NCBI GenBank assembly: GCA_944326515.1
Contig: CALVEI010000001.1
Location: 1 to 64,000, forward strand
From: Candidatus Gastranaerophilales bacterium
Lineage (GTDB): Bacteria; Cyanobacteriota; Vampirovibrionia; Gastranaerophilales; Gastranaerophilaceae
Direction of reading: 5' to 3'
DNA: 64,000 nucleotides
The notes beneath the pieces are model-generated. The model had not been told where the DNA came from. It was given only the letters and a program-made list of their open reading frames with translations, and searched no databases. Numbering within the stretch: position 1 is the stretch's first letter; each line of letters starts with the position of its first letter. Below, in pieces: positions 4,066-64,000 of this stretch. Both the position numbers and the translations under genes were made by a program.

Positions 4066-4071
4066 TTTTTC

Positions 4072-5061
4072 TCACTTTTCAATAATTATTGCAGAGTTTT
4101 CAGTTAATTTTATTTTATTTTTCTTGTAATTTTTTGATATAAAAAAGATTGGAGAAATTTCTTGTACTCTACCGTATTGACTAAACCTGTCAAAAATATC
4201 TTTACCGTATTTTCTTACATGATCAACCTGACCGTAATATTTTTCTCTATCTTCAGGCGTAACTATTGAAGCATCCTCAAATGTAATATCAAGATCATTG
4301 TAATAAGGAGTGGTCAATATAATTTTGCCATCGTGTTTTAAAACTCTTAATAATTCACTAAAAAAGCCTTTTTCGTCTAATACATGTTCTACAACATGAT
4401 TTGTTATAATAAAATCAAAATAATCATTTTCAAACTTCAAATCTAAAACATTCATTTTTTGGCAATTTATTGCATATCGGTACTTTTCAGGAAATAAATC
4501 AATCGAATAATATTCAATATTTTCTTGTTTTGAAAAAAGTTCATAAATACTCTTTTCCGGTGCAGTATGTAAGATTCTTAGTTTTTTTTGTTTAATATTT
4601 AAAATAAATTTTTCATACACATAATACAAAAAACGATGACGCTCAAGCGAACCGCATTCAATACAGCAGACATTTTGCCTTACAGGCCTTCCATAATCAA
4701 TAAAATGTTGTTCTTTTTGACAATAAGGACAATAATACTTTTTATTTTTCACAAAATTATCAACAACTTCTATATTTGGAAATTTTTGTCTTAACTCTTT
4801 TTTGAGTTGATTATAAGAATCTTTTATAGAGATAAAAGAAATATATATTTTATCCGGATTAATATTCGAAATATCGTATGGAGAAAAAATCTTATAACCG
4901 CAAAAATCAGCCCCCCATTTTTGTGAATCCATGTCTATGATTCCAACAACATTCGGAAAATGCTTATCTGCAAGAAAGTCCTTTAAAAGATTACTTGCAC
5001 CCCAAAATAAAATTTTTCTTTTAGCATCGTCTTGTAAAAGCTTATAATTTAATTGTGCCAA
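4072..5061 (-). CDS. SAM-dependent methyltransferase with N-terminal Rossmann-like domain and zinc ribbon
   Basis: Three modules are visible. First is an FWGASN Rossmann-like domain (about residues 10-100) shared with the downstream glycosyltransferase. Next is a short cysteine-rich ribbon (CPYC then CCIEC, about residues 108-140). Last is a class I methyltransferase with RILHTAPE as motif I and VVEHVLDEKGFFSELLRVLK in the usual methyltransferase_11 position. The start is taken as TTG at 5061 because AAAGGAG (5070-5076) sits 8 bases upstream; a longer frame from TTG at 5082 would include that Shine-Dalgarno. It is the first gene of a two-gene operon with the glycosyltransferase, suggesting methylation of a glycan or its carrier. 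The substrate is unknown. Confidence 0.78.
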   Translation of the reverse strand: MAQLNYKLLQDDAKRKILFWGASNLLKDFLADKHFPNVVGIIDMDSQKWGADFCGYKIFSPYDISNINPDKIYISFISIKDSYNQLKKELRQKFPNIEVVDNFVKNKKYYCPYCQKEQHFIDYGRPVRQNVCCIECGSLERHRFLYYVYEKFILNIKQKKLRILHTAPEKSIYELFSKQENIEYYSIDLFPEKYRYAINCQKMNVLDLKFENDYFDFIITNHVVEHVLDEKGFFSELLRVLKHDGKIILTTPYYNDLDITFEDASIVTPEDREKYYGQVDHVRKYGKDIFDRFSQYGRVQEISPIFFISKNYKKNKIKLTENSAIIIEK

Positions 5062-5202
5062 ACCGAGTGCTCCTTTCTTCAACGCATTTTATCATATAAA
5101 ACATTAAAAAAACAATAAAGGTAAGGCTAAAAATATCGTTTTGAAAAACTTGATCTGTTTTTATCTTTAGTTGTTTAAATAAAAAAATTAAATAATCAGC
5201 TG

Positions 5203-8172
5203 TTAAAGCCCATAGCCGACAATACGATTTTTAACGTTTTTATCTCTTAGAGAATTGTCTTCTTCAGGGTTGAGTGTAAACAATACCTCTTCTTCAACAT
5301 CTTGAGTATCTTCTGTATCGGAAGTGTTATTTATTTCAAGCAACTCATTTAAATAATCTTTATACAAAGCTAATATTTTATATAAAGCAGGTTTTTTATT
5401 TACGATCAATTCCAATGGCTTATCACTACCTGTTATATCAAAAGACAGTTTTGTCGGAAACTTTTTAACAAGCAAAGCTGATTCCATAATATCTGCTAAT
5501 TCTTCAAAATATAATGAATACAAACGTTCGTTTTGGGTAGATTCAAATAATATATCAGAAAGAGCTTCTTCCATTGCCAAAGATTGCAATTTTAAAGATA
5601 CAGGCATGTTTTGTTTTGGCAATATAACTATGTTTGCAATATCATCATATTTTTTTCTTTTAGTGCATACTTGTTTTTCAAATTCATCAGGCTGTAAGTT
5701 TTCATATCTCAAATGTTTATTCACTTCTGCAAAATATTCTTTTGTAAAAGCTTGAGGAACAAAACTATATTTTTGTAAAAATTTGTATTCTAAATTTTTA
5801 TATTCTTTTTCTTTTTCAAAAGCATTTGGTTTATCAAAACAACAATTCATGTTTACATCAGGATAATCACTTTCCCAAAAGATTTTAAATTTATTATAAA
5901 AAGCTTTTTTTACTTCTGCTGGATAATTGTTTTTGTCATCAAACAAAATCAATGCGCTTTTACCGAAGGTTTGTAAAAATTCTTCCAACTGTTTTGGAGT
6001 TGCTGTATTTTCAAACATTGGTTTTTCTGAATGTTTAGCAAATAAATCATTTTTAACAAAAAGATTTGAACCAACACGTTCATTAACATCAGGTTGGTAA
6101 AAATAATTTTTAATAATTTTATCTATTTCAAAATCAGAAAGTGGCTGTTTGTATTCAGAATATAATTTAGACATTTTATTAACATCAATCTTCTTTTTAG
6201 TCACATTCAAATCAATATATTTATTAGCATAATTTGAATAAACACTAAAATCTTGACCTTGTGAATACATCATTAAAGCATTTTTAATCTCTGATGGGAC
6301 TAATTGAAATACGTTCGGATTTTGGGTTAAAGAATACAACACATCAGCTGCTGCTGCACACATAGGATTATTTATCCGTTGAGTTTTATCGCTACCCATG
6401 TGTGTTATTTTTTGCAATTTCAATCTTTCTTCATCAGAAACAGCATATTCGGACAATATAGCTTTTGTCCAAAGTTTCACATATTCTTCAGGAATTTCAG
6501 ATAATGTCGTCTTAAAATAATCATCCAAATATTCTTGAGGCAGTTGTTTAACAATAGCAAAATGTTTGTTGTTATATGCAAACATAAACTCTTGCATATA
6601 TTTCGGCATATCATTAGTTTTAGGTTCTTCTGTTATCGATTTTAATGATTGAAGATTTTTTTCACTATCAATATCTTTTATACGCTGATATCTATCTCGA
6701 TTTATTTCTTTTTTTAGTTCTTCAAATGTTCCTCGAGAAATTGCCAAATTAACTTTTTCCCAAGCAAGAATTATTTTTTTGCCAAACTCTTTTGCTTCAT
6801 CTTCATGCAATGACCAAAACTCTGTCATAATTTCAGACTGATATTGACTAAATTCTTCTGAAGAAAATAACAAATCAGCAGGTTTTGTAATTTGTTTTTG
6901 CTGCATAAAGGCAGAAAGCTCACGAATTAAATCTTTGCTATGGTTCCAAGCATCAATCATGGCAAACCTCAAAGGTTCAGAACCTGATTTCATTTTTGAT
7001 ATGTAATCAGTTCTTTCCTCCGCTGTCATATTTGCCCAACGGGATGATAAAATATGCATGCGTTTTAAATGCAAAGTATCTTTTTGAGCTTCCGACAGGT
7101 TTGCTTCAAACAATTTAAGATTGTTTGTTGCCCATTTAACAAAAAGTTCATCTTGGCCTAATTTAGAAGAACTTGTTTTGATTCTTTGGGTCGGTTTTTG
7201 AGCAGAGTTAGTCTCAGCTTGTTCATTATTTTTTGAAGAAACCAACAAATCTTTCTTTTCTTGCTGTTTTTGCTCTTTCTTAAAATCTTTCAACATATCA
7301 AGAGCAGTCATTTGGGCAGCTATCATATCCAATTTTTCATTTTGTGTATGAGAATTCCACCAAATTTCAAACTTTTCTACGGATTTTTTTGCTCTTGCAG
7401 TTCTTTCACTGTCACTTAACGATGCCCAAAAAGCTTTTTGCACTTCCGAGATATATTCTCCCACCTTGTCAGAATAGCCTTCTCTTGTATATCTTAAAGA
7501 GTTTAGATAATTTTGATTAGGAAGTTTTATACCCAAGCCCTTGAGTGTACCGTCTTGAATATAAGCAGAATTAGGATATTTAAATCTAAAATCAGCTTTA
7601 AAATCCTCATCTAAATCTTTTTCTAAATCCTTATTTATTTCGTCATAGGTTTTTGCTTCAAGAAAGATTTTTTTAACAAGATAAACTGTTAAATTTTCTT
7701 TGCTTTTTAAAACACCTTGATTTGAAAGAGCAAGAAGCTCATCATTTTCCCTAACAGAAGCAAGCAAACCAATAGAAGCTTTTGTTTGCATCGGATCTAT
7801 CAGATTTTTGAATAACTCTTCGTCAGGAAAGAAATTCTTAATATCTTGAATTGTATTTGCATTTTTTAAGAAAGAATATGCTCTTTTTTGAGCCTCAATA
7901 GGTGTTAATCTTGTTTTATCATCTAGCGATTCAACATACCTTCTTACCGTAGAAGGCATTTTATTTTTGTTAAATTCGTAAAACCTATCAAGCCCTTTAT
8001 CTACTCTAGAACCACCGAAAGAAACAAGATAGCCTCTTATATTAGAACCTATCACAGGTATTTTGGGTTCCGATTTAAAAGTATTTGTAAAAACAGATTT
8101 ATTTGTTTTTGTTTTTTGCTCTCTGTTTTGTTTTTGAAAAGATAAAAAATTATTGATACTTCTTACATTCAT
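5203..8172 (-). CDS. Large lineage-specific protein with SFG box, function unknown
   Basis: A 989-residue protein with no family I recognise. It opens with MNVRSINNFLSF, has a linker rich in lysine and threonine, then V-S-F-G at about residues 50-53. The rest is strongly helical and charged, with a coiled-coil-like lysine/glutamine/glutamate stretch near residues 290-320. There are no membrane segments or signal peptide. The C-terminus is acidic (TEDTQDVEEE). Repeated patterns such as F-W-x-S-H/D-x-x-E hint at internally repeated helical units, for example around residues 245, 280 and 450. It lies 15 bp downstream of the 345-residue SFG-box gene, likely in one operon. Confidence 0.75.
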   Translation of the reverse strand: MNVRSINNFLSFQKQNREQKTKTNKSVFTNTFKSEPKIPVIGSNIRGYLVSFGGSRVDKGLDRFYEFNKNKMPSTVRRYVESLDDKTRLTPIEAQKRAYSFLKNANTIQDIKNFFPDEELFKNLIDPMQTKASIGLLASVRENDELLALSNQGVLKSKENLTVYLVKKIFLEAKTYDEINKDLEKDLDEDFKADFRFKYPNSAYIQDGTLKGLGIKLPNQNYLNSLRYTREGYSDKVGEYISEVQKAFWASLSDSERTARAKKSVEKFEIWWNSHTQNEKLDMIAAQMTALDMLKDFKKEQKQQEKKDLLVSSKNNEQAETNSAQKPTQRIKTSSSKLGQDELFVKWATNNLKLFEANLSEAQKDTLHLKRMHILSSRWANMTAEERTDYISKMKSGSEPLRFAMIDAWNHSKDLIRELSAFMQQKQITKPADLLFSSEEFSQYQSEIMTEFWSLHEDEAKEFGKKIILAWEKVNLAISRGTFEELKKEINRDRYQRIKDIDSEKNLQSLKSITEEPKTNDMPKYMQEFMFAYNNKHFAIVKQLPQEYLDDYFKTTLSEIPEEYVKLWTKAILSEYAVSDEERLKLQKITHMGSDKTQRINNPMCAAAADVLYSLTQNPNVFQLVPSEIKNALMMYSQGQDFSVYSNYANKYIDLNVTKKKIDVNKMSKLYSEYKQPLSDFEIDKIIKNYFYQPDVNERVGSNLFVKNDLFAKHSEKPMFENTATPKQLEEFLQTFGKSALILFDDKNNYPAEVKKAFYNKFKIFWESDYPDVNMNCCFDKPNAFEKEKEYKNLEYKFLQKYSFVPQAFTKEYFAEVNKHLRYENLQPDEFEKQVCTKRKKYDDIANIVILPKQNMPVSLKLQSLAMEEALSDILFESTQNERLYSLYFEELADIMESALLVKKFPTKLSFDITGSDKPLELIVNKKPALYKILALYKDYLNELLEINNTSDTEDTQDVEEEVLFTLNPEEDNSLRDKNVKNRIVGYGL

Positions 8173-51207: not shown

Positions 51208-52719
51208 TTATTTGTTTTCGCCCATATATTCGTATATTCTAAACCCTTCAAATTTTACGATTGCAGGGTGGCTTTCATATATCAGTTTGTAATTTTTCAG
51301 TTCAGTAACGTTTAATCTGTCTGCATCAAAAAATGGTACGAGAGCGTATATTTTTTTGTTTTTAAAATTTGGCAGGTATTCTAAGGCGTATTTTGCATAT
51401 TCGTTCCAACCGTTTTTATCTAGTATGTAGAATATCTTTTGATCCCAAACAACGTATTTAATACTGTATTCGTGTTGGGCAGACCAAATTTCGTTTTTTC
51501 CTTTAAGGTAATAGACAACTCCAATAGCATGTGGATCGTTATCAGTTACAATAACAGAATTATTTTTGTTTATATTTTGAGTTATCCATTGTGCGGTTTC
51601 TTTTGCAGCAGAATAGTTGTATTTAATATCCATTATCGAATATTTAAGACCGTTCATTAGTGTAAAAATAAAGAACAAACCGATTATACAATTTGTTGTT
51701 ATTTTTAATTTTTCGGATAGATTTTCTTGGTTTAAAAGTAACCACAAGCAGAACAATAAAATGATATGTCCGCAAAATATTCTTGTAACAAATATCCAGT
51801 GGTTATAACCGAGAATATAAATAATCAGTTGAAATAAAATGCTTAGAAAAGCTATAGTAAAGAGTTTTTTGTTTTTTATATAAAGAATTACAAATAAAGA
51901 CAAATATAATAATACAGAAAGTATAATCAATGGTACATTTAATACAGGGAACATTATTTTCCCTATATCCGGCCATTGATTATCAACAGCATTTATAAAG
52001 AATTGGCTTAATACTTTGGTAATGCTTACATCTAACTCGCTTGTATCAATTTTTATAACTATATTGCTTGAAGTAGTTCCGTGTAATTGCAATACCACTG
52101 CAATCAAACCAATAGTCATAATGGCAAAAGCTGTGGAAAATATCTTTTTTTGCTTTGGCTCCATTGTTTTCCACTTAATAAAAATGTTTTTGTATAAAAA
52201 ATCTATAGTCAACAGTCCACAAAAGGCCAACATAATAATGTGTGTGTTTGCCAACATAAATATTAAAGAAGCATACCAAAACGGATGTTTGTCAGATTTT
52301 GGATAAAGGTATGCAAGAGCAAAAACTAATAGTGGTAAAATAGAATAACTTCTTGCTATTACGGGGAAAAAGTACAAAAAACCCGCACTTGTTATAATTG
52401 CAAATTTAGCAAATTTGTTAAATGGTGAGTATTGCAAAAACAGGAATACAGCAGCAACCATACTTAACCAGCAAAAAATTTGCATAAACATAATTGATAT
52501 ATTCAACTTTGCAAAGGGCATCATCAGTAAATAAAAAAATGACGGATGGCCTTCGTTAACAAGGTGTTTGAATAATTGAAAAATGTTCATATTTTTGGCT
52601 AACAACCAAACTTGTGCTTCGTCTGCCCAGGTTTCGTGGTGTATAACCAGTATTAGTGTAAAAATAGCGTATAAAAATGTGATTAGAACATTTATTAATA
52701 AACTTTTAGTTTTACTCAT
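51208..52719 (-). CDS. GT-C-type membrane glycosyltransferase, subtype A (A1)
   Basis: A 503-residue protein with about ten membrane segments. The first periplasmic loop carries W-A-D-E-A-Q (31-36), the acidic pair expected at the catalytic site of GT-C (PMT/ArnT-like) enzymes, then E-G-H-P-S (56-60). After the last membrane segment comes a conserved YSAAKETAQWI motif and a C-terminal periplasmic domain of about 120 residues. Such enzymes use polyprenyl-phosphate sugars in the periplasm. This is the last gene of the eight-gene array, 8 bp after its neighbour. The sugar and acceptor are unknown. Confidence 0.8.
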   Translation of the reverse strand: MSKTKSLLINVLITFLYAIFTLILVIHHETWADEAQVWLLAKNMNIFQLFKHLVNEGHPSFFYLLMMPFAKLNISIMFMQIFCWLSMVAAVFLFLQYSPFNKFAKFAIITSAGFLYFFPVIARSYSILPLLVFALAYLYPKSDKHPFWYASLIFMLANTHIIMLAFCGLLTIDFLYKNIFIKWKTMEPKQKKIFSTAFAIMTIGLIAVVLQLHGTTSSNIVIKIDTSELDVSITKVLSQFFINAVDNQWPDIGKIMFPVLNVPLIILSVLLYLSLFVILYIKNKKLFTIAFLSILFQLIIYILGYNHWIFVTRIFCGHIILLFCLWLLLNQENLSEKLKITTNCIIGLFFIFTLMNGLKYSIMDIKYNYSAAKETAQWITQNINKNNSVIVTDNDPHAIGVVYYLKGKNEIWSAQHEYSIKYVVWDQKIFYILDKNGWNEYAKYALEYLPNFKNKKIYALVPFFDADRLNVTELKNYKLIYESHPAIVKFEGFRIYEYMGENK

Positions 52720-52727
52720 CGTTCCAA

Positions 52728-54215
52728 TTATTCTCCTTTTTTAATGTATTTATATATTTTGTAGGCTTCTCCATTTTTGATTGCCGGAGGAGAAGAGTAA
52801 ATTAATTTGTATTTATCCGGCATCAATATGTCATAACGATAAAAATTTTCTAATAAAGAAGAAGATAAAATATAGGCATTTTTATTATTTTGTTTTTCCA
52901 TTTCTTCTTCTAACAACTGAGATATAACATGTGGAGAGTAAAAACCGGTAACAGTCCATTTACTGAATTTCAGTTTTTTATTGTAATAAATGCTATAAAA
53001 ATTGTAATCGGGTAGATAAACCATTACGGATGTAATGTAAACATCAATATCTGGGATAATTAGTGCTTTTTTATCAATTTTATTTTTTATAAACTGTGCA
53101 GTATTTTTAGCACTTGAATAAGGATACTTTAAATCAATATAAATACTCTTGAAACTGCACATAAAAGTCAAAATAAATATTAATGAAAGAATGATTTCAA
53201 TGAATAGTTTTCTTTTAGCAGCTATTTCAATATTTTTAAAAGAAATCCAAAAGCAAAAAAGCAGTATATTTAGTGCACAAAAAATTCTTGTAGGATACAT
53301 AACATTGTAGCTAAAAATATAAATAAAAAACTGAAATGCAATTGAAAAAAATCCAAAAGTAAAAGCTATTTTATTTATAAAAAATAAAGCTATAAATGAT
53401 AACAAAAAGAATATCCACTCAACTGTTGCTACAAAAAATGCCGTTTTAGAAAATGCTCCAAGTTGTTGAGCAGTAATACTATCAGATACACAATCTGTTA
53501 TGTTTAAAAAGAACAAAGACAGTACTTGTTTAGTATTATCGCCTATATTTTTAAGATCAAAAGTGATTGCATTATTAGATTCTATAGAGCCTGATAATTG
53601 CACAATGACGGCAATAATTCCCAGTGTTACCAACATCAAAGAGAATAAATGGATTTTGTCTGTATTTTTTTTGCTAATTATATCGTACAGAAATTTTAAA
53701 GCTAAACACAAACAAAATACAAACATAATTACGTGTGTATTAGCTAGAAATACGAGTAATAATGTATATAATACAGGGTATTTTTGTTGTTTGGGATATA
53801 AAATAGCAATTAAAAACATTAATAAGGGAATAATAGAATAACTTCGAGCCATAACAGGCAAATAATATAAAAAACCCGCACTCATAATAATTGCGAATTT
53901 AGTAAATTTGTTAAAAGGTGAATATTCTAATAATAAAAAAACGCTTGCTACCATACTGAGCCAACATACAATTTGCATGGCAAGTATTGGCAAACCTATT
54001 TTAGCAAAAGGCATAATTAGTAAATAAAAGAAGGACGGATGACCTTCGTTTACAAGATGGTTGAATAGTTCAAATATATTCAAATGTTTTACAAGAAGCC
54101 AAACCTGTGCTTCATCAACCCAAATTTCATGATGTAATACCACGATTAATGTAAAGATTGCATATAAAAATGTGATTAAGATGTTTTTTATAAGACTTTT
54201 TTTTGTTTCGCTCAT
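52728..54215 (-). CDS. GT-C-type membrane glycosyltransferase, subtype A (A2)
   Basis: A 495-residue paralogue of A1. The motif reads W-V-D-E-A-Q with D34 and E35, one residue different from the others, then LVNEGHPSFFYLL. YSSAKNTAQFIKNKI begins the C-terminal periplasmic domain. The N-terminal halves of A1, A2 and A3 are close, while the soluble ends differ strongly, which suggests different acceptors. Separated from its neighbours by 8 and 17 bp. Confidence 0.8.
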   Translation of the reverse strand: MSETKKSLIKNILITFLYAIFTLIVVLHHEIWVDEAQVWLLVKHLNIFELFNHLVNEGHPSFFYLLIMPFAKIGLPILAMQIVCWLSMVASVFLLLEYSPFNKFTKFAIIMSAGFLYYLPVMARSYSIIPLLMFLIAILYPKQQKYPVLYTLLLVFLANTHVIMFVFCLCLALKFLYDIISKKNTDKIHLFSLMLVTLGIIAVIVQLSGSIESNNAITFDLKNIGDNTKQVLSLFFLNITDCVSDSITAQQLGAFSKTAFFVATVEWIFFLLSFIALFFINKIAFTFGFFSIAFQFFIYIFSYNVMYPTRIFCALNILLFCFWISFKNIEIAAKRKLFIEIILSLIFILTFMCSFKSIYIDLKYPYSSAKNTAQFIKNKIDKKALIIPDIDVYITSVMVYLPDYNFYSIYYNKKLKFSKWTVTGFYSPHVISQLLEEEMEKQNNKNAYILSSSLLENFYRYDILMPDKYKLIYSSPPAIKNGEAYKIYKYIKKGE

Positions 54216-54232
54216 TTTGTTTTATCCGTAAT

Positions 54233-55597
54233 TTAGTAGTATCTGACAAAAGTCATTATAAAAGTTTGGAAAAGTAAAAATAAAGATAATAAAACCAAAC
54301 TTATCGGTAGTACTTTATTTTTTATTGAAAATTTTGTTAAACTTAAAAGAAGTATTAAAGGTAATATCAATGGGGTTAAATATCGACCTTGAACTCCTAT
54401 AATATAGGGTTTTGTTTGATATATCAGGTAAACAGAAGTCATTATAATAAAGTGAATAAGTATAATAACTGCAAAAAGTACTAGTTTATCCACAATTTTT
54501 ATATCGCACTCGGTTTCATTTTCTGATTTGTAAAATACTGATGCAATCAACCCTATCCATGCAAAATGAATGTATTGTGTAGGTATCATTGCGAGTGTTA
54601 CACCTATGCTTGAAATCATGTTTTGGTATAAAAATCCTTTTAAAAAGTTTGTTGAAGCCAAAACATTTTTTACATAAGCAAAAGGTGCAAAAATAATTTC
54701 TTTAATCAAATCAATTTTATTTACAAATTGGTGTTCAAGCCCATAGTTGCTTGTTATTGGTGATTGCATAATTGTCAAAAGAAACAAGCAAATAATTAGT
54801 ATATTGATTACTGTTGTTATTGAAAAAATTTTTAAGTAATTTTTTGTACTTTCAAATTTGTCTTTTGGTATCAAAAAATATAATAAAATTAATGGAAAAT
54901 AAGCGAATTTTAAAATGCTTACAAGAGTAATTAAAACACCCCACACAAAAAACTCATTATGACTTATTTGTTTAGAATCACCATAAGCAAGTTTTAATGT
55001 GTATGCAATGTATAACATTATAAAACCTAAATTTATACCGTCAGTGCTTACTGATGCTGCTTGATAGACATTTATTGGCAATAATGCAAAGAAAAATATC
55101 AACCATTTTTTGCAGGGAGCAATTTTTATTGCTGAATAAATCAATGCCAGATAAACTAACAAAGAACAAAACCTTAAAATATACATCATAAAAAGAGGTT
55201 TAATATTCAAAAGTTTTAAAATCCACAAAACAATAAAAGACGGAAAATACGATAAAGGAGTGTAACTTGTTGGTGTAAAGTTTAAAAATTGAGTGTTGTT
55301 TTTATCAAGTTTTATTTTAGCAGCGTTTAAAGTTGCGTTAAAAGGAATTTTTTCATTCGACATTCTATATGCGTTGTAAAATTCGTGTATGTTAGAAAAA
55401 CTTTTTGGTAAAGTAAGCCCTGTTTGTCCATCTTTAATTTCGTATTTTAGTATGTGTTGTGTATATCCCCACATTTTGTAAAAGTGTTCAAGCTCGTCAG
55501 GAGATTGAAAAGGAGGGTTTAAAAATAAAAAAACAATGCCCCAAAACAAACACAGTATTAAGAATATGTTTTCTGTGTTTAATAATGTTTTTTTCAT
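54233..55597 (-). CDS. DUF2142-like membrane glycosyltransferase (B1)
   Basis: A 454-residue protein with many membrane segments and no large soluble C-terminal domain. NPPFQSPDELEHFYKMWGYTQ-type motif at residues 27-47 carries P33, D34, E35 and H38, the DUF2142 signature, a family related to GT-C transferases. LRFCSLLVYLALIYSAIKI and VQGRYLTPLILPL are shared with B2. GAGGA lies before the start. It sits in the middle of the array between A-type genes. Confidence 0.8.
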   Translation of the reverse strand: MKKTLLNTENIFLILCLFWGIVFLFLNPPFQSPDELEHFYKMWGYTQHILKYEIKDGQTGLTLPKSFSNIHEFYNAYRMSNEKIPFNATLNAAKIKLDKNNTQFLNFTPTSYTPLSYFPSFIVLWILKLLNIKPLFMMYILRFCSLLVYLALIYSAIKIAPCKKWLIFFFALLPINVYQAASVSTDGINLGFIMLYIAYTLKLAYGDSKQISHNEFFVWGVLITLVSILKFAYFPLILLYFLIPKDKFESTKNYLKIFSITTVINILIICLFLLTIMQSPITSNYGLEHQFVNKIDLIKEIIFAPFAYVKNVLASTNFLKGFLYQNMISSIGVTLAMIPTQYIHFAWIGLIASVFYKSENETECDIKIVDKLVLFAVIILIHFIIMTSVYLIYQTKPYIIGVQGRYLTPLILPLILLLSLTKFSIKNKVLPISLVLLSLFLLFQTFIMTFVRYY

Positions 55598-55611
55598 TGT
55601 CTTGTCCTCAC

Positions 55612-57033
55612 TTAATTTTGTCTTTTTACTATATGATAAATTGCAAATTTTTCTTGGTTATTAAAGACTTTATCTGATGAAGCATAAATTGGTATTAAGT
55701 CTTCGTAAAAAGAACCTGCGCTCATAATAACATAAATTTCTTTGTGTGTTTTTAAGTATTCTTCTAGTGGTATTGGATGATAACTTGGATAGATTTTTTT
55801 TGTCCAAATGGTATATGTATAATAGTCATTATATCCATAGTAGAAAAATTTCCATTTTTTACTGTTTTTAGGTAAATATGCACTGATAACTACGGTTGTT
55901 AGCGGATAATTTGATACAATAAATGCATTTTCGGGAATATTTTTTTGAATAAATTTTGCGACATTTTCACCATCTGAAAAACTTTTTTGCATATCTTGTT
56001 TGATTATGTCAAGATTACCGGGTAAGGTCGATAAAAAGACAATTACAATTGCAATATTTATGAAGATTTTATGTTTGTTGCTAAAGTCTTTGAACATGAT
56101 CCAAAAACAAAATAAAATTACAAAATATAATGTATATATTCTTTGTGGAAGTTGTCCCCAAATAAAAATATAAACAGCAAATTGGAAAAACATGCTAAAA
56201 ATATAGACAGAGAACATTTGTCTGTTTTTAAAGAAAGTTATGACAGCAGTTACGGCTGTGAAAAAATAAAATAAAGTAGTATAAAACCATCCAACATTTC
56301 CATAAAGATTAAAAACAGCTCTGTCTAAAGCATGTATTATACCTTTCGATAATGGTAATATAAGTGAATTTTTTACTACTACATTTTCGTTTTGGCTGTT
56401 CCACAAATAACCTGTTAAAAAGGCAAAAGATAAAAACATTAGCCCTGCTGCAATTATTGATTTTTTATCTTTGTTATTCCATAGAAAAATTATTGCTAAA
56501 GCAGTACAAAAACCAAGCATTATTACATGGGTATTTGCAAGTGCTATTATTAAAAAGGCGTAAATAAAAGGATGCTCTTTTTGTTTTTGATAAAAAGATG
56601 CAATTAAAAACATGAATAAAGGTATAAGACAGTAGCTCCTTGCTATTGCTACATACCAATACAAAAAACCCGAACTGAAAACAACTGCAAATTTGCTGAA
56701 AAAATTAAATGGTGACTTAAATATCAAAATGCCAACAGATATGACCACCAAAAGCCAATTTAAAATTTGCATAGATAATACTGATAAGTTTAATTTTGCC
56801 AGCGGTAGTAAAGAAAAATACCATAAAAGCGGGTGGCCTTCTGTTCTGACATGTCTTATTATGCCTAAAATATCTAAATCTCTTACAACAACCCAAGCTT
56901 GAGCTTCATCTGCCCAAATTTCGTGGTGCAGTACAATGATTAGTGTAAAAATAGCGTATAAAAAAATCCATACTATGTTAATAATAAAAGATTTTTTATT
57001 TTTTATTTGTTCATTAATTTTGTTGGTAAACAT
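55612..57033 (-). CDS. GT-C-type membrane glycosyltransferase, subtype A' (A'1)
   Basis: About 473 residues from ATG 57033, chosen for GGAGAGGC upstream and for its fit to the paralogues; a frame from 57078 would overlap the preceding gene more. W-A-D-E-A-Q has D42 and E43, followed by the A'-type VRTEGHPLLWYFSLLPLAKL. A SFSDGENVAKFIQKNI motif marks the soluble end. It overlaps the end of the upstream gene by 20 bp, indicating translational coupling. Confidence 0.8.
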   Translation of the reverse strand: MFTNKINEQIKNKKSFIINIVWIFLYAIFTLIIVLHHEIWADEAQAWVVVRDLDILGIIRHVRTEGHPLLWYFSLLPLAKLNLSVLSMQILNWLLVVISVGILIFKSPFNFFSKFAVVFSSGFLYWYVAIARSYCLIPLFMFLIASFYQKQKEHPFIYAFLIIALANTHVIMLGFCTALAIIFLWNNKDKKSIIAAGLMFLSFAFLTGYLWNSQNENVVVKNSLILPLSKGIIHALDRAVFNLYGNVGWFYTTLFYFFTAVTAVITFFKNRQMFSVYIFSMFFQFAVYIFIWGQLPQRIYTLYFVILFCFWIMFKDFSNKHKIFINIAIVIVFLSTLPGNLDIIKQDMQKSFSDGENVAKFIQKNIPENAFIVSNYPLTTVVISAYLPKNSKKWKFFYYGYNDYYTYTIWTKKIYPSYHPIPLEEYLKTHKEIYVIMSAGSFYEDLIPIYASSDKVFNNQEKFAIYHIVKRQN

Positions 57034-58516
57034 ATATTTTAAAAGCCTCTCCAATTGCAAAACAAGGTTTAGAAACATACATTAATTTGTATTTTTCAGG
57101 TAAAGTAGATTCAAATTGATTTGTATTCATAAAATTTGAAGCAAGTATGTAAATTGTTTTGTTTTTTAAATTATATTTTTTTATTTCTTTTTCGAGCAAT
57201 TTTGTAAAGGTAATGTTGTAATTTTTAATATCTGTAATATTTTCTTTATTCCAAACCATATATTTTATTTCTTTGTGTTTATAAACAGAGTAAAATTTAT
57301 AGTCAGGTAAATAATAATAAACACCAAGTCCAAAAGCGTCGGCTGTTGGGATAATTAAGGCATCTTTATTAATATTGTTTTTGATATATTCTGCAGTTTC
57401 TTTTGCACTTGAATAATTGTATTTAATATCTTTTTGAATAAAAGAGATTCCATTGGCGCTTGTGATTAAAAAGAATATGCTTATAACTATATTAATTAGC
57501 ATTTTTTGATTATCAGATTTTTGTTCTAATAAAATCCAGTACCCGAAAATGATTATTAAAAAAGCTGAAAATATTCTTGTAGGATAAATGAGTGTAGAAT
57601 AGGCAAAAGCATATATCATTAATTGAAAAACAATGCTGGTAAAACATATAAAAAAAAGTTTTTTATCTTTTAAAAAAAGAATAATAAAAAGAACTATAAA
57701 AAATATACTAAATAAAAGACAACAAACAAAATAATTAATAACGTGAGGGGGCATGAACATATTGTGTATCATAAAAGTATCTATATAACTGACAGCTCCA
57801 CCAAAAAATTGGCAAAGTACACTATATGCTGAAGTTAGTATGTTTTGTGAATTAAAATCTATTGTGCCATTTGAGGCTTCGCTTCCTGCAAGTTGGATAA
57901 TTGTTGTCAAAAATGACAAAATTATTATAAAGATCGATATAATATGTTGTGAAGATTTGTTTTTTATATTTTTAAAAATTTTATGTATAAAATCTACAGC
58001 GAGTAAAACACAAAAAGCAAACATTATTACATGGGTATTTGCTAAAATTGATAATAAAATAGAATACACATAAGGGTGTTTTTCTGCTTTTTTATAATAT
58101 ATTGCGAGTATAAAAACGATTAAGGGCAAAATGGAATAACTTCTTGCAATTACAGGAAAGAAATATAAAAAACCACCGCTTATAACTATAGAAAATTTGC
58201 AAAAATTGTTAAAAGGTGATTTTTTTAAAAGTAAAAATACACTGACAACAGAACAAAACCAACACAAGATTTGCATAAATATTATAGATGTATTTAATTT
58301 TGCAAAAGGCATAATTAAAAGATAAAAAAATGATGGGTGTCCTTCATTTACTAAATGTTTAAAAAGGCTAAAATCAAATATTGAAAGATTTTTGGCAATA
58401 AGCCAAGCTTGAGCCTCATCTGCCCATATTTCATGGTGGAATACCATAATTAACGTGAATAAAGCATATAACATTGTAACAATTATGTTTATTGCTAAAT
58501 TTTTACTGTCTTTCAT
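57014..58516 (-). CDS. GT-C-type membrane glycosyltransferase, subtype A (A3)
   Basis: About 500 residues from ATG 58516 (a TTG at 58531 is also in frame). W-A-D-E-A-Q with D33 and E34, LVNEGHPSFFYLLIMPFAKL as in A1 and A2, and NYSSAKETAEYIKNNI before the C-terminal domain. Although it is closest to A1 and A2 it is flanked by A' genes, so the array order reflects more than one round of duplication. Overlaps its upstream neighbour by 14 bp. Confidence 0.8.
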   Translation of the reverse strand: MKDSKNLAINIIVTMLYALFTLIMVFHHEIWADEAQAWLIAKNLSIFDFSLFKHLVNEGHPSFFYLLIMPFAKLNTSIIFMQILCWFCSVVSVFLLLKKSPFNNFCKFSIVISGGFLYFFPVIARSYSILPLIVFILAIYYKKAEKHPYVYSILLSILANTHVIMFAFCVLLAVDFIHKIFKNIKNKSSQHIISIFIIILSFLTTIIQLAGSEASNGTIDFNSQNILTSAYSVLCQFFGGAVSYIDTFMIHNMFMPPHVINYFVCCLLFSIFFIVLFIILFLKDKKLFFICFTSIVFQLMIYAFAYSTLIYPTRIFSAFLIIIFGYWILLEQKSDNQKMLINIVISIFFLITSANGISFIQKDIKYNYSSAKETAEYIKNNINKDALIIPTADAFGLGVYYYLPDYKFYSVYKHKEIKYMVWNKENITDIKNYNITFTKLLEKEIKKYNLKNKTIYILASNFMNTNQFESTLPEKYKLMYVSKPCFAIGEAFKIYVYQQN

Positions 58517-59933
58517 TACTTTTTCTTTCAAATTTGTAGATTCTGAAAATTTCGCTATCCATTATTGTATTTAAATTAGATTCATACAATGGTGTAATAT
58601 TGCTATAGTTTAAATATACAGCAGTAATGACATAAACTTCTGGCACTTGTTGTAAAATTTCATTAACTGGTATTGTTTGATAAGGGTTTAAAATAGGTTT
58701 TTTCCAATCATAATATGTGAAAAAATTATTGTATGGAACATAAAATATTTTCCAATTGTTTTTTGGTAAATAGGCCAGTATTGAAGCTGCTGAAATTGGA
58801 GAATTTGTTACTAATAATGTATTTTGAGGAATGTTGTTTTTTATGTATGCGGCAGTATTTTTACTGTCAGAAAACGGGTATTTTAAATCCTTTTTTATAA
58901 CATCCAGTGTATTTGGCCAAGTGAGCAAAAATACTAAAGAAAAGATTGTGTTAATGAGTATTTTTTCTTTTGTATTCAAATTTTTATATAATATGAACAC
59001 ACATAACATAGGCACAAATAACAACAAAAATGTTCTTTGTGGAATCATTCCCCATATGAAAATAAATATTGCAATAACATAAATAATGTTTATTGTATAA
59101 ACAAAAAACTGTTTTTTATCTTTTATTAAAAGAAAAATGAAATTAAAAACAATAAAAAAACCTAATATTATTGAATAAAACTTATTATTATATCCATAAA
59201 TATTTTTAGTGATTTCAAAATATAAATTTTTTAACCAAAATGTATTGTTTTTAATGTTGTAACTTTTTACGATAAAATTTTCATTTTGACTTCCATTTAA
59301 ATATAAAACAACAAAAAGCATTGAACAAATTATTATCAAAAACGGAAAGATATATTTTTTTCTAATTTTATTATCTTTTTCTTTTAAGATGTTCTGATAA
59401 AAAAACAAACAAGCAAGAGCAATACTTAATCCAAAAGCTATTACGTGAGTATGAGCTAATAAAGCCAAACTGGTTGCATATAAATAAGGTCTGTCTTTTT
59501 GTTGTTTGTACAAAACAGTTACTAAAATTAACAACAAAAACATTAATCCATAGCTTCTTGTTACTATTGGATACCAGTATAAAAAAGCAGAGCTTGTAAT
59601 AATGCAAATATTAGTTATTTTATGGAAAGGCGATTTTAACAAAAAGATTGTTGCTGCAACAAGCATAAAAAACCAGTTTAATATTTGGGCAGCAAAAACA
59701 TTGTATCCCATTTTCGCGAATGGCAATAAGCTAACATACCACAATAAAGGATGTCCCTCTGTTCTGACATGTTTGATTATTTCCAAAATATTTAAATCTC
59801 TTACTACTAACCATGCTTGGGCTTCGTCTGCCCAAACCTCATGATTAAAAACAAGAATCAATGTAATAATTGCATACAAAAATATACAAATGAGATTAAT
59901 TATTAGAGATTTTTTGTTTTCAATTTTGAACAT
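58503..59933 (-). CDS. GT-C-type membrane glycosyltransferase, subtype A' (A'2)
   Basis: A 476-residue paralogue closest to A'1. W-A-D-E-A-Q with D36 and E37, then VRTEGHPLLWYVSLLPFAKM. PFSDSKNTAAYIKNNI begins the C-terminal domain, which shares with A'1 a T-x-W-x-K-x-I-x-x-x-Y-x-x-I-P pattern. Its end overlaps the next gene and its start overlaps the previous one by 14 bp each. Confidence 0.8.
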   Translation of the reverse strand: MFKIENKKSLIINLICIFLYAIITLILVFNHEVWADEAQAWLVVRDLNILEIIKHVRTEGHPLLWYVSLLPFAKMGYNVFAAQILNWFFMLVAATIFLLKSPFHKITNICIITSSAFLYWYPIVTRSYGLMFLLLILVTVLYKQQKDRPYLYATSLALLAHTHVIAFGLSIALACLFFYQNILKEKDNKIRKKYIFPFLIIICSMLFVVLYLNGSQNENFIVKSYNIKNNTFWLKNLYFEITKNIYGYNNKFYSIILGFFIVFNFIFLLIKDKKQFFVYTINIIYVIAIFIFIWGMIPQRTFLLLFVPMLCVFILYKNLNTKEKILINTIFSLVFLLTWPNTLDVIKKDLKYPFSDSKNTAAYIKNNIPQNTLLVTNSPISAASILAYLPKNNWKIFYVPYNNFFTYYDWKKPILNPYQTIPVNEILQQVPEVYVITAVYLNYSNITPLYESNLNTIMDSEIFRIYKFERKSNERQ

Positions 59934-61338
59934 TTTTTTGCTTACCGTCTAAACTATCTAAAATGTAAAATCTTTCAGTCATAATTAGTGTTGTGTCTTT
60001 TGATTTGTATAAGATATCTTTTTCAGGTACATCAACAGAACTATAAAGATAATATATTTTTTTATTTTTAAATTTTTGTATGTTTTTTTCTTGCATTTCT
60101 ATAGAAATATAATTATTTGCTTGGTTGTCATAACCGTATGTATAGAACGTATCTGTAATTGGATAGTAGAACTTGTAGTCTTTAATGTATGCTGCAATAC
60201 TACTTGTAAAAATAGGTTGATTTGTAATTATTACGTCATCTTTTTTTATATTGTTTTTTATAAAGTTTGCTGTATTTTTGCTACCGGAATAGTCATATTT
60301 TATGTCGTTTTCTCTAAGTTGAAAGCCTAGATTAATGCTGAATCCGAAAAATAAAATTAAAATTAAGTTATATAAAATTTGTTTTGTTTTGTTTAAATTA
60401 TTTTGTAAAAATATTATCCAAAAACAAAAAAGCAAAACAGTTGTTCCTGTCCAAACTTTTTCGGGCGCAGACATCCAAATATAGTTATATATGAAAAATT
60501 GATATACCAAATTTATAAAAAAGGCACAAAATAACTTTTTATTTTCAATAAATATGACCACTCCTGAAAATAAAAGTAATAATGAAAGAAAGATTCCTTT
60601 TATGTTTCCCATAATTCCAAATAAGTGAATCATATACGTTACATAAGTTTTGGTAAAAAATTTGTTAGCTAGAACAGTGTATTCCAAAACACTTTCATTT
60701 TTATGCGGGCAAGTAAAAATGTACAATGCTAAAAATAGAATGGGTAAAAAGATAGTTAACAAAGGGCCAATGTAATTTTTCTTGTTAATTTTGTTTTTAA
60801 AAATATTGTCATAAAAAAATAAAAAACCCATTATACTACAGAAAGCACACATTAATACATGGGTTTGTGATAATAAAGCAAGACTTATTGAATATAAATA
60901 AGGTCTTTGTTTCTGTGTTGGATAAAAAATTGCTGCTAAAAAAATAAAGAAAGGTACCAAGGAATAGCTTCTTGAAATAACAGGAAGCCAATATAAAAAG
61001 CCTGCACTAAAAATTATGCTCAATTTAGTTATTATGTTAAACGGAGATTTCCATAAAAAAATTCCAACCGCTATTATCATAAATAACCAACTGATTATTT
61101 GCATTGATAAAATTGACATTCCAAGTTTTGCAAAGGGTAATGCCATAAAATACCACATTAAAGGGTGACCTTCTATTCGAACATGGTCAATTATTCCAAA
61201 TAAGTTTAAATCTCTTACAACAAGCCAAACTTGTGCTTCATCTCTCCATACTTCATGATTTAACACTGTAATAAATGTTAATACTGCATATATCAATAAG
61301 ATAAATATATATGTTAAAGTGCTTTTTTTGTTAGTCAT
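59920..61338 (-). CDS. GT-C-type membrane glycosyltransferase, subtype A' (A'3)
   Basis: A 472-residue member with W-R-D-E-A-Q (D33, E34; Arg in place of Ala) and VRIEGHPLMWYFMALPFAKL. DYSGSKNTANFIKNNI begins a C-terminal domain that is the shortest of the group. AGGAAAA precedes the ATG. It is second in transcription order, 8 bp after B2. Confidence 0.8.
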   Translation of the reverse strand: MTNKKSTLTYIFILLIYAVLTFITVLNHEVWRDEAQVWLVVRDLNLFGIIDHVRIEGHPLMWYFMALPFAKLGMSILSMQIISWLFMIIAVGIFLWKSPFNIITKLSIIFSAGFLYWLPVISRSYSLVPFFIFLAAIFYPTQKQRPYLYSISLALLSQTHVLMCAFCSIMGFLFFYDNIFKNKINKKNYIGPLLTIFLPILFLALYIFTCPHKNESVLEYTVLANKFFTKTYVTYMIHLFGIMGNIKGIFLSLLLLFSGVVIFIENKKLFCAFFINLVYQFFIYNYIWMSAPEKVWTGTTVLLFCFWIIFLQNNLNKTKQILYNLILILFFGFSINLGFQLRENDIKYDYSGSKNTANFIKNNIKKDDVIITNQPIFTSSIAAYIKDYKFYYPITDTFYTYGYDNQANNYISIEMQEKNIQKFKNKKIYYLYSSVDVPEKDILYKSKDTTLIMTERFYILDSLDGKQKNVQN

Positions 61339-61346
61339 TGGTTTTC

Positions 61347-62714
61347 CTAGTAGTAGTACATGAAAATAATTATAGTTGTTAAAAGTAATAATACTTGTGA
61401 AATTAATGTCAAAAGAATAGGAATAATTTTATTAGAGATATAACCTTTTTTAGAATCAAATAACAACAAGAATAAAAGTATAAATGGTGTTAAATACCTG
61501 CCTTGTATGCCTGTAATATATGGCTGTGTTTGGTAAATTATATAGATAGCTGTTACTATCAACAGGTAGGATAAAATGATTGATATAACAATCAATTCTT
61601 TGTTTTTAAAATTTAATGCAGTTATTTCTTTATTTGTTTTATTACAAAAAGCAGAAACAAATAATATAAACCAAGTTAAGTTTAATAAAAATGGTGGAAG
61701 CATAACTAAATTGCCACCAACACTTGAAATCGTGTTATAGAAGAAAAAGTTTTTTAAATACCATGTTGATGATATGACGAGTTTTGTATATTGCAATGGT
61801 GAGCTTAGTATTTTTTTTATCATTTCATAACTTGGTAATAGTTGGTTGTTATACACGTGTTCTGTCATACCAGGCTTATGCATACTAAATAATAAAAATG
61901 CAATTATAATTGCTGTGTTTATAGCTAAGGTTAAAAGAAAATTTGTGTAATATGTTTTTTTGTCTTTAAATTTTTTGGTTGGTATTAAAAAATACAATAA
62001 AATTAATGGAAAATAAGCAAATTTTAATAATCCTATACAAGTAATTAAAAAAAACCAAACGGATATATGCAGTTTATTTAATTTTGTTATTGTGTTGTCA
62101 GAGGCTAATTTTAATGTAAAAGCAATAAATACCCCTATTGTCCCAAATGTTATACCATCAGTACTTATTGAAGCTGCCTGATAAACATTAATTGGCAATA
62201 ATGCAAATATTAAAAACAGCCATTTATGTGTAGGTGTTATTTTTATTGCTCCATACATAAGTGACAAATATACAAGTAAGGAGCAAAATCGTAAAATATA
62301 CATCATACAAAGAGGTTTAACATTAAAAAGTTTTAACAACCATAAAACTATAAAAGACGGAAAATAAGATAGTGGTGAATAACTTGATGGATCAATTTTG
62401 ACAAAATATTGTTCTTGTTTTTCTAAAGGAAGTTTGCTATATGTGATAGTCTTGTACAATGGAATTTTTTCTGATGAATAAACATGTTTTGCATAGGCGT
62501 AGTATATTTCTTTCATGTTTTTAGAAATTTTTATGCCTGTCCAACCGTCCTTTATTTGATATCTGAGTGTACCTTGAGTGTAACCCCACATTTTAAAAAA
62601 ATGTGCAAATTCATCAGGTGCCTGAAATGGTGGGTTTGCTATTAAAAGCACTAATCCCCAGAATAAACAAACTATTAAAAATAAATTCTCAATTTTAAAT
62701 AAATTTTTTTCCAT
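61347..62714 (-). CDS. DUF2142-like membrane glycosyltransferase (B2)
   Basis: A 455-residue close paralogue of B1, with the same motif at the same positions (P33, D34, E35, H38 in NPPFQAPDEFAHFFKMWGY) and IQGRYLTPFILLF near the end. It is the first gene of the eight-gene operon, only 27 bp from the divergent gtrA start. The shared gap holds several TATAAT-like elements on both strands. Confidence 0.8.
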   Translation of the reverse strand: MEKNLFKIENLFLIVCLFWGLVLLIANPPFQAPDEFAHFFKMWGYTQGTLRYQIKDGWTGIKISKNMKEIYYAYAKHVYSSEKIPLYKTITYSKLPLEKQEQYFVKIDPSSYSPLSYFPSFIVLWLLKLFNVKPLCMMYILRFCSLLVYLSLMYGAIKITPTHKWLFLIFALLPINVYQAASISTDGITFGTIGVFIAFTLKLASDNTITKLNKLHISVWFFLITCIGLLKFAYFPLILLYFLIPTKKFKDKKTYYTNFLLTLAINTAIIIAFLLFSMHKPGMTEHVYNNQLLPSYEMIKKILSSPLQYTKLVISSTWYLKNFFFYNTISSVGGNLVMLPPFLLNLTWFILFVSAFCNKTNKEITALNFKNKELIVISIILSYLLIVTAIYIIYQTQPYITGIQGRYLTPFILLFLLLFDSKKGYISNKIIPILLTLISQVLLLLTTIIIFMYYY

Positions 62715-62741
62715 CTCTATAATTTATAATATTATAAAATT
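62715..62741. promoter_or_regulatory. Compact divergent promoter of the GT-C array and gtrAB
   Basis: Only 27 bases separate the start codons. TATAAT at 62718-62723 and 62725-62730 and TATAAA at 62733-62738 (plus strand), and TATAAT at 62736-62731 (minus strand), overlap one another. The -35 regions must lie inside the opposing coding regions, so the two promoters probably compete. gtrA has no Shine-Dalgarno. Confidence 0.45.
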
Positions 62742-63116
62742 ATGAAATTAGATTGGCTTTTTATAAAATTTATTCTTGTTGGAATTTTAAATACAGCGTT
62801 TGGGTATTTTGTATTTGCAGCGTTGTTGTATTTTGGTTTGCATTATACGCTAGCGGTTGTTTTGTCAACAATTGCGGGGGTGCTTTTTAACTTCAAAACA
62901 ACGGGTAAGCTAGTTTTTAAAAACGATAATAACAAGCTTATATTTAAGTTTGTTGCAGTATATGCGTTTACCAGCATTATTGGTATAATAGTTTTGCGTT
63001 TGGCAGAATTGGTTAATGTAAATCTGTATTTTGCAGGCATGGTTTCAACCGGAATCTGTGCGATTATATCATTTATACTTAACAAAAATTGGGTTTTTAA
63101 ATATGAAAAAAATTAG
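62742..63116 (+). CDS. gtrA: GtrA-family membrane protein (lipid-linked sugar flippase)
   Basis: A 124-residue, four-span GtrA protein: FILVGILNTAFGYFVFAAL, FNFKTTGKLVFK, and a C-terminal SFILNKNWVFKYEKN. In O-antigen modification systems GtrA is thought to flip undecaprenyl-phosphate-glucose to the periplasm. It overlaps the next gene (gtrB-like) by 14 bp and diverges from the GT-C array. Confidence 0.93.
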   Translation: MKLDWLFIKFILVGILNTAFGYFVFAALLYFGLHYTLAVVLSTIAGVLFNFKTTGKLVFKNDNNKLIFKFVAVYAFTSIIGIIVLRLAELVNVNLYFAGMVSTGICAIISFILNKNWVFKYEKN

Positions 63117-64000
63117 TCTTGTTTCAAGTTGTTATAACGAAGAAGAAAATATAGATACTCTTTATGACAGAGTTACAAAAGCTATAGAACCTTTTTGTGA
63201 CAAATATGAGTTTGAATATATTTTGCTTGATAATGGTTCAACTGATAATACCGAATTAAAATTGAGAGAAATAGCAGCTAAAGATTCAAGAATAAAAATT
63301 ATACTAAACGCAAGAAATTTTGGCCATATCCGCTCTCCTTATTACGGAATGATTCAAACAACAGGTGATGCTGTTATTTACCTTGCGTCTGATTTACAAG
63401 ACCCGCCGGAATTGATAAAAGACTTTATACAAAAATGGGAAGAAGGATATAAGGTGGTTCTAGCTCAAAAAACTAAAAGCGAAGAATCTATGCTTATGTT
63501 TTTAGTTAGAAGTGTATATTACGAGCTGCTTTCCCGTATTGCGGACGACGATTCGGGCCTTGTTAAAAACTGCACAGGGTTTGGCTTGTATGACAAAAAG
63601 GTTATAGAAATAATAAAAAGCATGGATGATCCATACCCTTATATTAGAGGTCTTGTTTGTGATATAGGTTTTGAAAAAGCTTTTGTAGAGTTTACTCAAC
63701 CTTCAAGAAAAAGAGGTATTACAAAAAATAATTTTTATACTTTGTATGACAACGCAATGATAGGTATCGTAAAACATTCTAAGGTTCCACTTAGAATAAT
63801 GACTTTTTTAGGTTTTGGATTTTCGTTTTTAAGCCTTTTGATTGCATTTTTATATTTTGTTTTAAAACTGATTTTCTGGGAAGAATTTTCTCTCGGCTTA
63901 GCACCTATAATCATCAGCCTGTTTTTCTTTGCTTCAATTCAGTTGTTCTGCTTGGGAGTTCTGGGCGAATATATTGGGGCTATCTATACAAGGGTAAATA
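63103..64000 (+). CDS. gtrB: GtrB-like polyprenyl-phosphate glycosyltransferase (cut by window end)
   Basis: A GT2 enzyme of the DPM1/GtrB type; 299 codons visible and no stop before the window edge. Residues include SLVSSCYNEEENIDTLYDR, LLDNGSTDNT, ASDLQDPPELI (the DxD-like site), a GITKNNFYTLYDNAMIG segment and two C-terminal membrane segments, the last ending LGEYIGAIYTRV. Such enzymes load a sugar onto undecaprenyl phosphate at the cytoplasmic face. With gtrA it would supply the donor for the eight transferases. The start ATG 63103 is inside the gtrA end. Confidence 0.92.
   Translation, partial: MKKISLVSSCYNEEENIDTLYDRVTKAIEPFCDKYEFEYILLDNGSTDNTELKLREIAAKDSRIKIILNARNFGHIRSPYYGMIQTTGDAVIYLASDLQDPPELIKDFIQKWEEGYKVVLAQKTKSEESMLMFLVRSVYYELLSRIADDDSGLVKNCTGFGLYDKKVIEIIKSMDDPYPYIRGLVCDIGFEKAFVEFTQPSRKRGITKNNFYTLYDNAMIGIVKHSKVPLRIMTFLGFGFSFLSLLIAFLYFVLKLIFWEEFSLGLAPIIISLFFFASIQLFCLGVLGEYIGAIYTRVN

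Follow-up and report, generated by a model that had tools for sequence, protein, structure and literature searches.

O-antigen glucosylation by the classical Gtr systems of Shigella and Salmonella involves GtrA, GtrB and a serotype-specific Gtr protein. In mycobacterial arabinan, the Emb and Aft GT-C enzymes share one lipid-linked arabinose donor. GtcA of Listeria, a GtrA-like protein, was found to serve the glycosylation of both LTA and WTA (PMC7389260), and in S. mutans SccN makes Glc-P-Und, which has been proposed to supply SccM and one more transferase (PMC11754754). DUF2142 proteins encoded in streptococcal and lactococcal cell-wall polysaccharide loci have been suggested to be polymerases or transferases (PMC9746298, PMC12599335), and loci carrying several candidate GT-C genes have been mentioned (PMC11127046). 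That several GT-C enzymes can draw on one lipid donor is already known in principle. As far as we searched, the size of the tandem array described here, the way it mixes two families, an ordered content that nevertheless varies between species, and one of the two families (A) are new, and our search for literature on Melainabacteria cell-envelope glycosyltransferases returned no relevant paper on the surface-glycan enzymes of this gut lineage.

The locus lies in a stretch of 64,000 nucleotides that was analysed as a whole (the window) and combines a gtrA–gtrB pair with eight GT-C-like genes, six of family A and two of family D (DUF2142). As in Gtr-dependent O-antigen glucosylation, GtrA and GtrB homologues adjoin GT-C enzymes and a polyprenyl-P-sugar donor is probable; unlike there, the pair is accompanied by as many as eight GT-C-type enzymes, drawn from two families, instead of one serotype-specific enzyme, and the genes are arranged divergently on the chromosome of an uncultured Gastranaerophilales genus. 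The initial annotation had pointed to this departure from one transferase per gtrAB pair, which holds both here, with eight, and in the complete arrays of relatives, with four to eight. Mycobacterial arabinan resembles the locus, as we read it, in that many GT-C enzymes draw on a single lipid donor, but mycobacteria use another type of synthase, have no GtrB and build a single polymer stepwise. The proposed likeness to Listeria GtcA is that a single GtrA-family protein serves more than one glycosylation (PMC7389260); however, the Listeria pathways differ in sugar and transferase, whereas this locus has a single synthase next to a tandem transferase array. Similarly, one Und-P-sugar pool is proposed for two GT-C enzymes in the SccN/SccM/SccP/SccQ system for SCC side chains (PMC11754754), although S. 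mutans has two or three transferases, paired synthases and no identified flippase. The streptococcal and lactococcal DUF2142 proteins share the Pfam family of D1 and D2, but sit in rgp/cwps loci without A-type paralogues.

Layout of the locus and its two families of predicted transferases

The ORF list confirmed that eight tandem membrane-protein genes, on the minus strand at 51208-62714, diverge from gtrA and gtrB; all eight are intact and retain an acidic motif. Neighbouring ORFs in the array overlap by 14-20 nt or are spaced by 8-17 nt, and their order, starting at the gtrA side, is D2, A6, A5, A4, A3, D1, A2, A1. The features are as follows:

51208-52719, minus strand: A1, 503 aa, predicted A-family GT-C protein, terminal gene of the array; 93% identity to the last gene of the sister genome L024
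52728-54215, minus strand: A2, 495 aa, predicted A-family GT-C protein, modelled by AlphaFold; counterpart absent from L024
54233-55597, minus strand: D1, 454 aa, DUF2142 membrane protein, GT-C-like; PF09913 E 6e-49; 94% identity in L024
55612-57033, minus strand: A3, predicted A-family GT-C protein; start probably 57033 (longest ORF from 57078)
57014-58516, minus strand: A4, predicted A-family GT-C protein; probable ATG at 58516 (longest ORF from a TTG at 58531)
58503-59933, minus strand: A5, 476 aa, predicted A-family GT-C protein
59920-61338, minus strand: A6, 472 aa, predicted A-family GT-C protein
61347-62714, minus strand: D2, 455 aa, DUF2142 membrane protein, first gene of the array; PF09913 E 5e-48; 50.5% identity to D1
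62725-62736, no strand: 12-bp perfect palindrome TATAATATTATA, proposed common -10 of gtrAB (plus strand) and the array (minus strand)
62742-63116, plus strand: gtrA, 124 aa, GtrA/DPMS transmembrane protein, putative polyprenyl-P-sugar flippase
63103-64000, plus strand, running past the window to contig position 64044: gtrB, 313 aa, GT2 polyprenyl-P glycosyltransferase

The eight proteins had been taken as one kind, but BLASTP separated them into two families (six A and two DUF2142) with no detectable similarity to each other, the A proteins being pairwise 32-48% identical. D1 and D2 scored 167 and 164 bits for DUF2142 (PF09913; Pfam cut-off 30.1), while no NCBIfam model matched either protein. 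Among the families suggested for the array, DUF2142 was recovered for these two genes (E about 1e-48), and PMT (PMT_2), GT39 and GT83 were not, since no window A protein gave such a Pfam match. In fact, A1-A6 matched nothing in Pfam or NCBIfam at a meaningful level, and PMT_2 was weakly matched by one of 64 aligned A-family members. When sequence profiles of both families were searched against the chains of the PDB, nothing matched up to E 10, and a search of viral contigs found no relatives of A.

The acidic DE motif noticed in the first loop was borne out, with D34/E35 kept in both families. In the A family (A2 numbering), H29, E30, W32, D34, E35, W39, G58, H59, P60, R124 and Y126 are invariant or nearly so, the acidic pair lying in HE.W.DEAQ. 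The D family has, among others, invariant P29, D34, E35 and H38, and D34/E35 (PPFQ.PDE) is invariant across 36 DUF2142 sequences. The last 130 residues of the A family, at the C-terminus, vary far more than the rest. Soluble C-termini, ascribed to all eight proteins, were found for the six A proteins but not for D1 and D2, both of which end in a TM helix.

AlphaFold models of A2 and D1 had mean pLDDT of 94.6 and 91.0, and in both the acidic pair is placed at the beginning of the helix following TM1. When A2 was compared with the PDB by Foldseek, the matches up to E 0.001 were exclusively GT-C proteins (STT3/OST, ArnT, ALG12 and DPY19) with a TM-score of about 0.5, such as ArnT 5f15 (E 1.6e-4, TM-score 0.52). 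For D1, the top 18 matches were GT-C without exception (PglB, Pmt4, AftB and ALG12), with a best E of 0.024 and TM-scores up to 0.43, and none reached E 0.001. On these models, a GT-C fold is well supported for the A family and probable for DUF2142; the proposal that all eight are GT-C enzymes is thus strong for A and moderate only for DUF2142, and these Foldseek matches gave no sign of another fold. The A family would represent a GT-C family lacking a Pfam or NCBIfam model, and the array context aids in assigning a function to DUF2142.

The donor pair and the distribution of the array

The GtrA protein matched PF04138 with 62.5 bits (cut-off 26.1; E 5e-17). The GT2 domain of GtrB was recognized by Pfam at E 5e-23, and its residues 4-305 matched the solved Synechocystis GtrB sll0501 at E 7e-52, with ArnC matching less well, in agreement with the GtrB-like identity first given to this plus-strand neighbour. 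In all 13 genus sequences examined, the DxD motif of GtrB has its first D substituted (ASDLQD, ASDLQDPP), which could mean a different chemistry for the sugar or the metal. Among NCBIfam models, GtrB matched best to PgfS (E 1e-55), which in streptococci has a role in protein glycosylation, and subunits of oligosaccharyltransferase and C-mannosyltransferase are among the Foldseek matches for A, raising the possibility that the acceptors are surface proteins and not a polysaccharide. We consider protein acceptors rather improbable, because the GT-C fold does not allow the acceptor type to be deduced and the PgfS match, at 189 bits, falls far under the cut-off of 500. No acceptor gene is encoded at the locus; LpxC and one O-antigen ligase/polymerase-like protein are encoded in the genome, making an LPS-type acceptor possible.

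The window's genome (2.23 Mb, 97.8% complete) contains one GtrA above the cut-off and one close GtrB, the next match scoring just 29 bits. Every one of its six A genes lies in the array, as do two of its five DUF2142 genes. One of the three DUF2142 genes outside, on contig C50, is immediately preceded by a DPM1-like GT2 gene, and a second polyprenyl-P-sugar synthase is therefore possible. These two genes form a divergent pair (L022:8300-12379) with a gene for a 595-aa multi-TM protein that has no Pfam match. On contig C26, a highly divergent DUF2142 gene (L021:7247-8602; tree branch length about 4) sits among unrelated genes.

The A family occurs chiefly in Candidatus Gastranaerophilales; more remote relatives were found in Cyanobacteria, Leptospiraceae, Elusimicrobia and others. 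Prevalence was assessed in 79 genomes picked by kinship and independently of the A gene, 23 from the same genus and 56 from outside. All 23 same-genus genomes carried A genes (1-7 each), and outside the genus 8 of 56 gave A matches, two of them marginal. A gtrB of at least 81% identity was present in 16 of the 23, and in 15 of these 16 the array adjoins it. Overall, the array adjoins gtrB in 14 genomes besides the window's, showing that the locus is conserved next to gtrB within the genus, and complete arrays adjoining gtrB comprise 4-8 genes, ranging from 7 A + 1 D (L026, L027) to 1 A + 3 D (L028). The gtrA gene adjoins gtrB in 11 array genomes and is located elsewhere in five (G008, G010, G011, G039 and G041), in one of which (G039) gtrB and the array sit on separate contigs. 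At L097, L099 and L100, gtrA lies apart from gtrB, solitary amid unrelated genes.

Twelve non-array gtrB loci in related genomes had no adjacent A or D gene, and so gave no instance of a gtrB with a dedicated transferase of these families; several lie amid epimerase-like or ThDP-enzyme-like genes (names read from the sequences). The gtrB homologues outside the genus array at L103, L105, L106, L107, L111 and L113 sit beside genes of ThDP-dependent (acetolactate-synthase-like) and epimerase-like enzymes, a hint of an unusual sugar donor.

A genes also occur without the pair: 19 genomes without any GtrA still have 1-4 A genes each, and 18 of them likewise have no GtrB of at least 45% identity. 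At several non-array A loci, the A genes are placed after a DPM1-like GT2 gene. Elsewhere in the Gastranaerophilales, two or three A genes (L049, L050, L054, L056) or D-A-A (L040, L043) come after the DPM1-like gene.

The main rival to a shared GtrAB donor is that GtrAB supplies some of the eight enzymes and the rest use the product of the C50 DPM1-like synthase or of another GT2. Such a mixture of donors is favoured by the A genes retained in genomes without GtrA, by the DPM1-like synthases of other Gastranaerophilales, which head arrays of two or three A genes and at times a D gene, and by the synthase gene that immediately precedes a D gene in the window's own genome. However, that DPM1-like locus has no A gene, and all six A genes stand with gtrAB at the same promoter region, so we regard mixed donors as quite possible but not as the reading we favour. 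The original suggestion that one pair could serve up to eight enzymes is strengthened by the lone GtrA, the lone close GtrB, the conserved array and the common palindrome, and weakened by the A genes of GtrA-less genomes and by the DPM1-like synthase. From the gene numbers, their position, the common control region and the precedents, we infer that one GtrAB donor is shared by several GT-C enzymes.

The palindrome between gtrA and the array

From start codon to start codon, gtrA and the first array gene are 25-27 bp apart in seven species. The palindrome TATAATATTATA in this gap is exact in six of the seven and differs by one base in L025, and within the surrounding block ATTTATAATATTATAAA 16 of 17 positions are invariant, compared with 27% of the third codon positions of gtrA. 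Either half of the palindrome reads TATAAT on its own strand, the leaders being predicted to measure about 5 and 10 nt, and symmetrical -10 elements driving divergent transcription have been described (PMC12825309). A consensus promoter scan gave matches no commoner than in shuffled sequences, with -10-like matches unenriched, so the promoter claim stands on conservation and symmetry only; a search for RNA families in the region found none. In our reading, the palindrome is probably a bidirectional promoter of gtrAB and the array, which would couple donor supply with transferase expression. The more distant relatives L036 and L038 have wider gaps in which the palindrome is absent, suggesting that the compact form is probably derived.

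Fixed ends and variable interior of the array

In the protein tree, the six window A genes fall into six separate old groups, whose orthologues elsewhere stand in the same order, and D1 and D2 are separate types as well. The A1 orthologue is terminal in nearly all complete arrays. Recent amplification within the genome was rejected, since the tree shows the six A genes as old separate lineages. Likewise, the base composition does not support a recent foreign origin, as GC3 of A2-D2 is 0.19-0.23, like that of groEL (0.21). A search for signs of phase variation was negative: homopolymer runs of at least 8 have about the same frequency in the array and in the remainder of the window (6 versus 4.8), and no relevant tandem repeats were found in the array region.

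Comparison of the window with its sister genome L024 showed that A1, D1 and gtrB are 93%, 94% and 96% identical, with 92-94% identity in the DNA on the flanks, while A6 and A3 are 82% and 74% identical, A2 and A5 have no counterpart, and the genes opposite A4 and D2 are non-orthologous (48.5% and 50% identical). In a second sister pair, L029 and L035, gtrB, gtrA and the terminal A gene are 95%, 94% and 98% identical, and two A genes in one genome occupy the place of a D gene in the other. In both pairs, therefore, the ends are 93-98% identical and the inner genes are diverged, absent or non-orthologous. Between species, the locus has a constant frame with a variable interior and its gene content is combinatorial, which suggests that it is a species-level surface-variation locus. 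The terminal A gene at L030:9986-11623 encodes 545 aa and, compared with its orthologues, carries an internal extension.

The conserved gene order and the old, distinct orthologue groups could also mean that the enzymes build a single defined glycan residue by residue rather than adding alternative decorations, for which mycobacterial arabinan, with one donor and many GT-C enzymes, is a precedent. We think this unlikely, because inner genes are absent or replaced between close sister species, which would hardly be expected if each gene encoded an indispensable step in making one chain. Still less probable is that the array consists of redundant or decaying duplicates of which one or two matter. 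Patchy presence between species and the unusual extension of the L030 A gene would fit decay, but the eight window genes are intact with their acidic motif, and the old paralogues each have orthologues in other species.

With somewhat more confidence than doubt, we interpret the locus as an unusually large and variable form of three-component extracytoplasmic glycosylation, in which the last step has expanded and one GtrAB donor serves up to eight GT-C enzymes. Besides the A genes of GtrA-less genomes and the DPM1-like synthase, the five array genomes with gtrA away from gtrB, the substituted DxD motif and the lack of an acceptor gene at the locus speak against this interpretation. By homology to the solved GtrB, GtrB would load one sugar onto polyprenyl phosphate on the cytoplasmic side, and GtrA, as its family implies, would assist the transit of the sugar-lipid across the membrane. 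Outside the membrane, up to eight GT-C enzymes (six A and two DUF2142) would then transfer the same sugar onto different positions or acceptors, presumably on a surface glycan or protein. The old paralogue types, in fixed order, would be retained, lost or swapped around a constant gtrAB and terminal A gene, and because the transferase set differs by species, the decoration pattern would differ by species too. More tentatively, a constant donor pair and a terminal transferase may enclose ordered, exchangeable GT-C cassettes from two unrelated subfamilies, which yield species-specific combinations for the same sugar under one symmetrical promoter. If true, the donor supply of a Gtr system would not have to be tied to one dedicated transferase but could serve a large set that evolves.

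Elsewhere in the window, a 989-aa ORF without a Pfam match (5203-8172) lies beside a GT2 glycosyltransferase gene that adjoins a methyltransferase gene (2854-5082).
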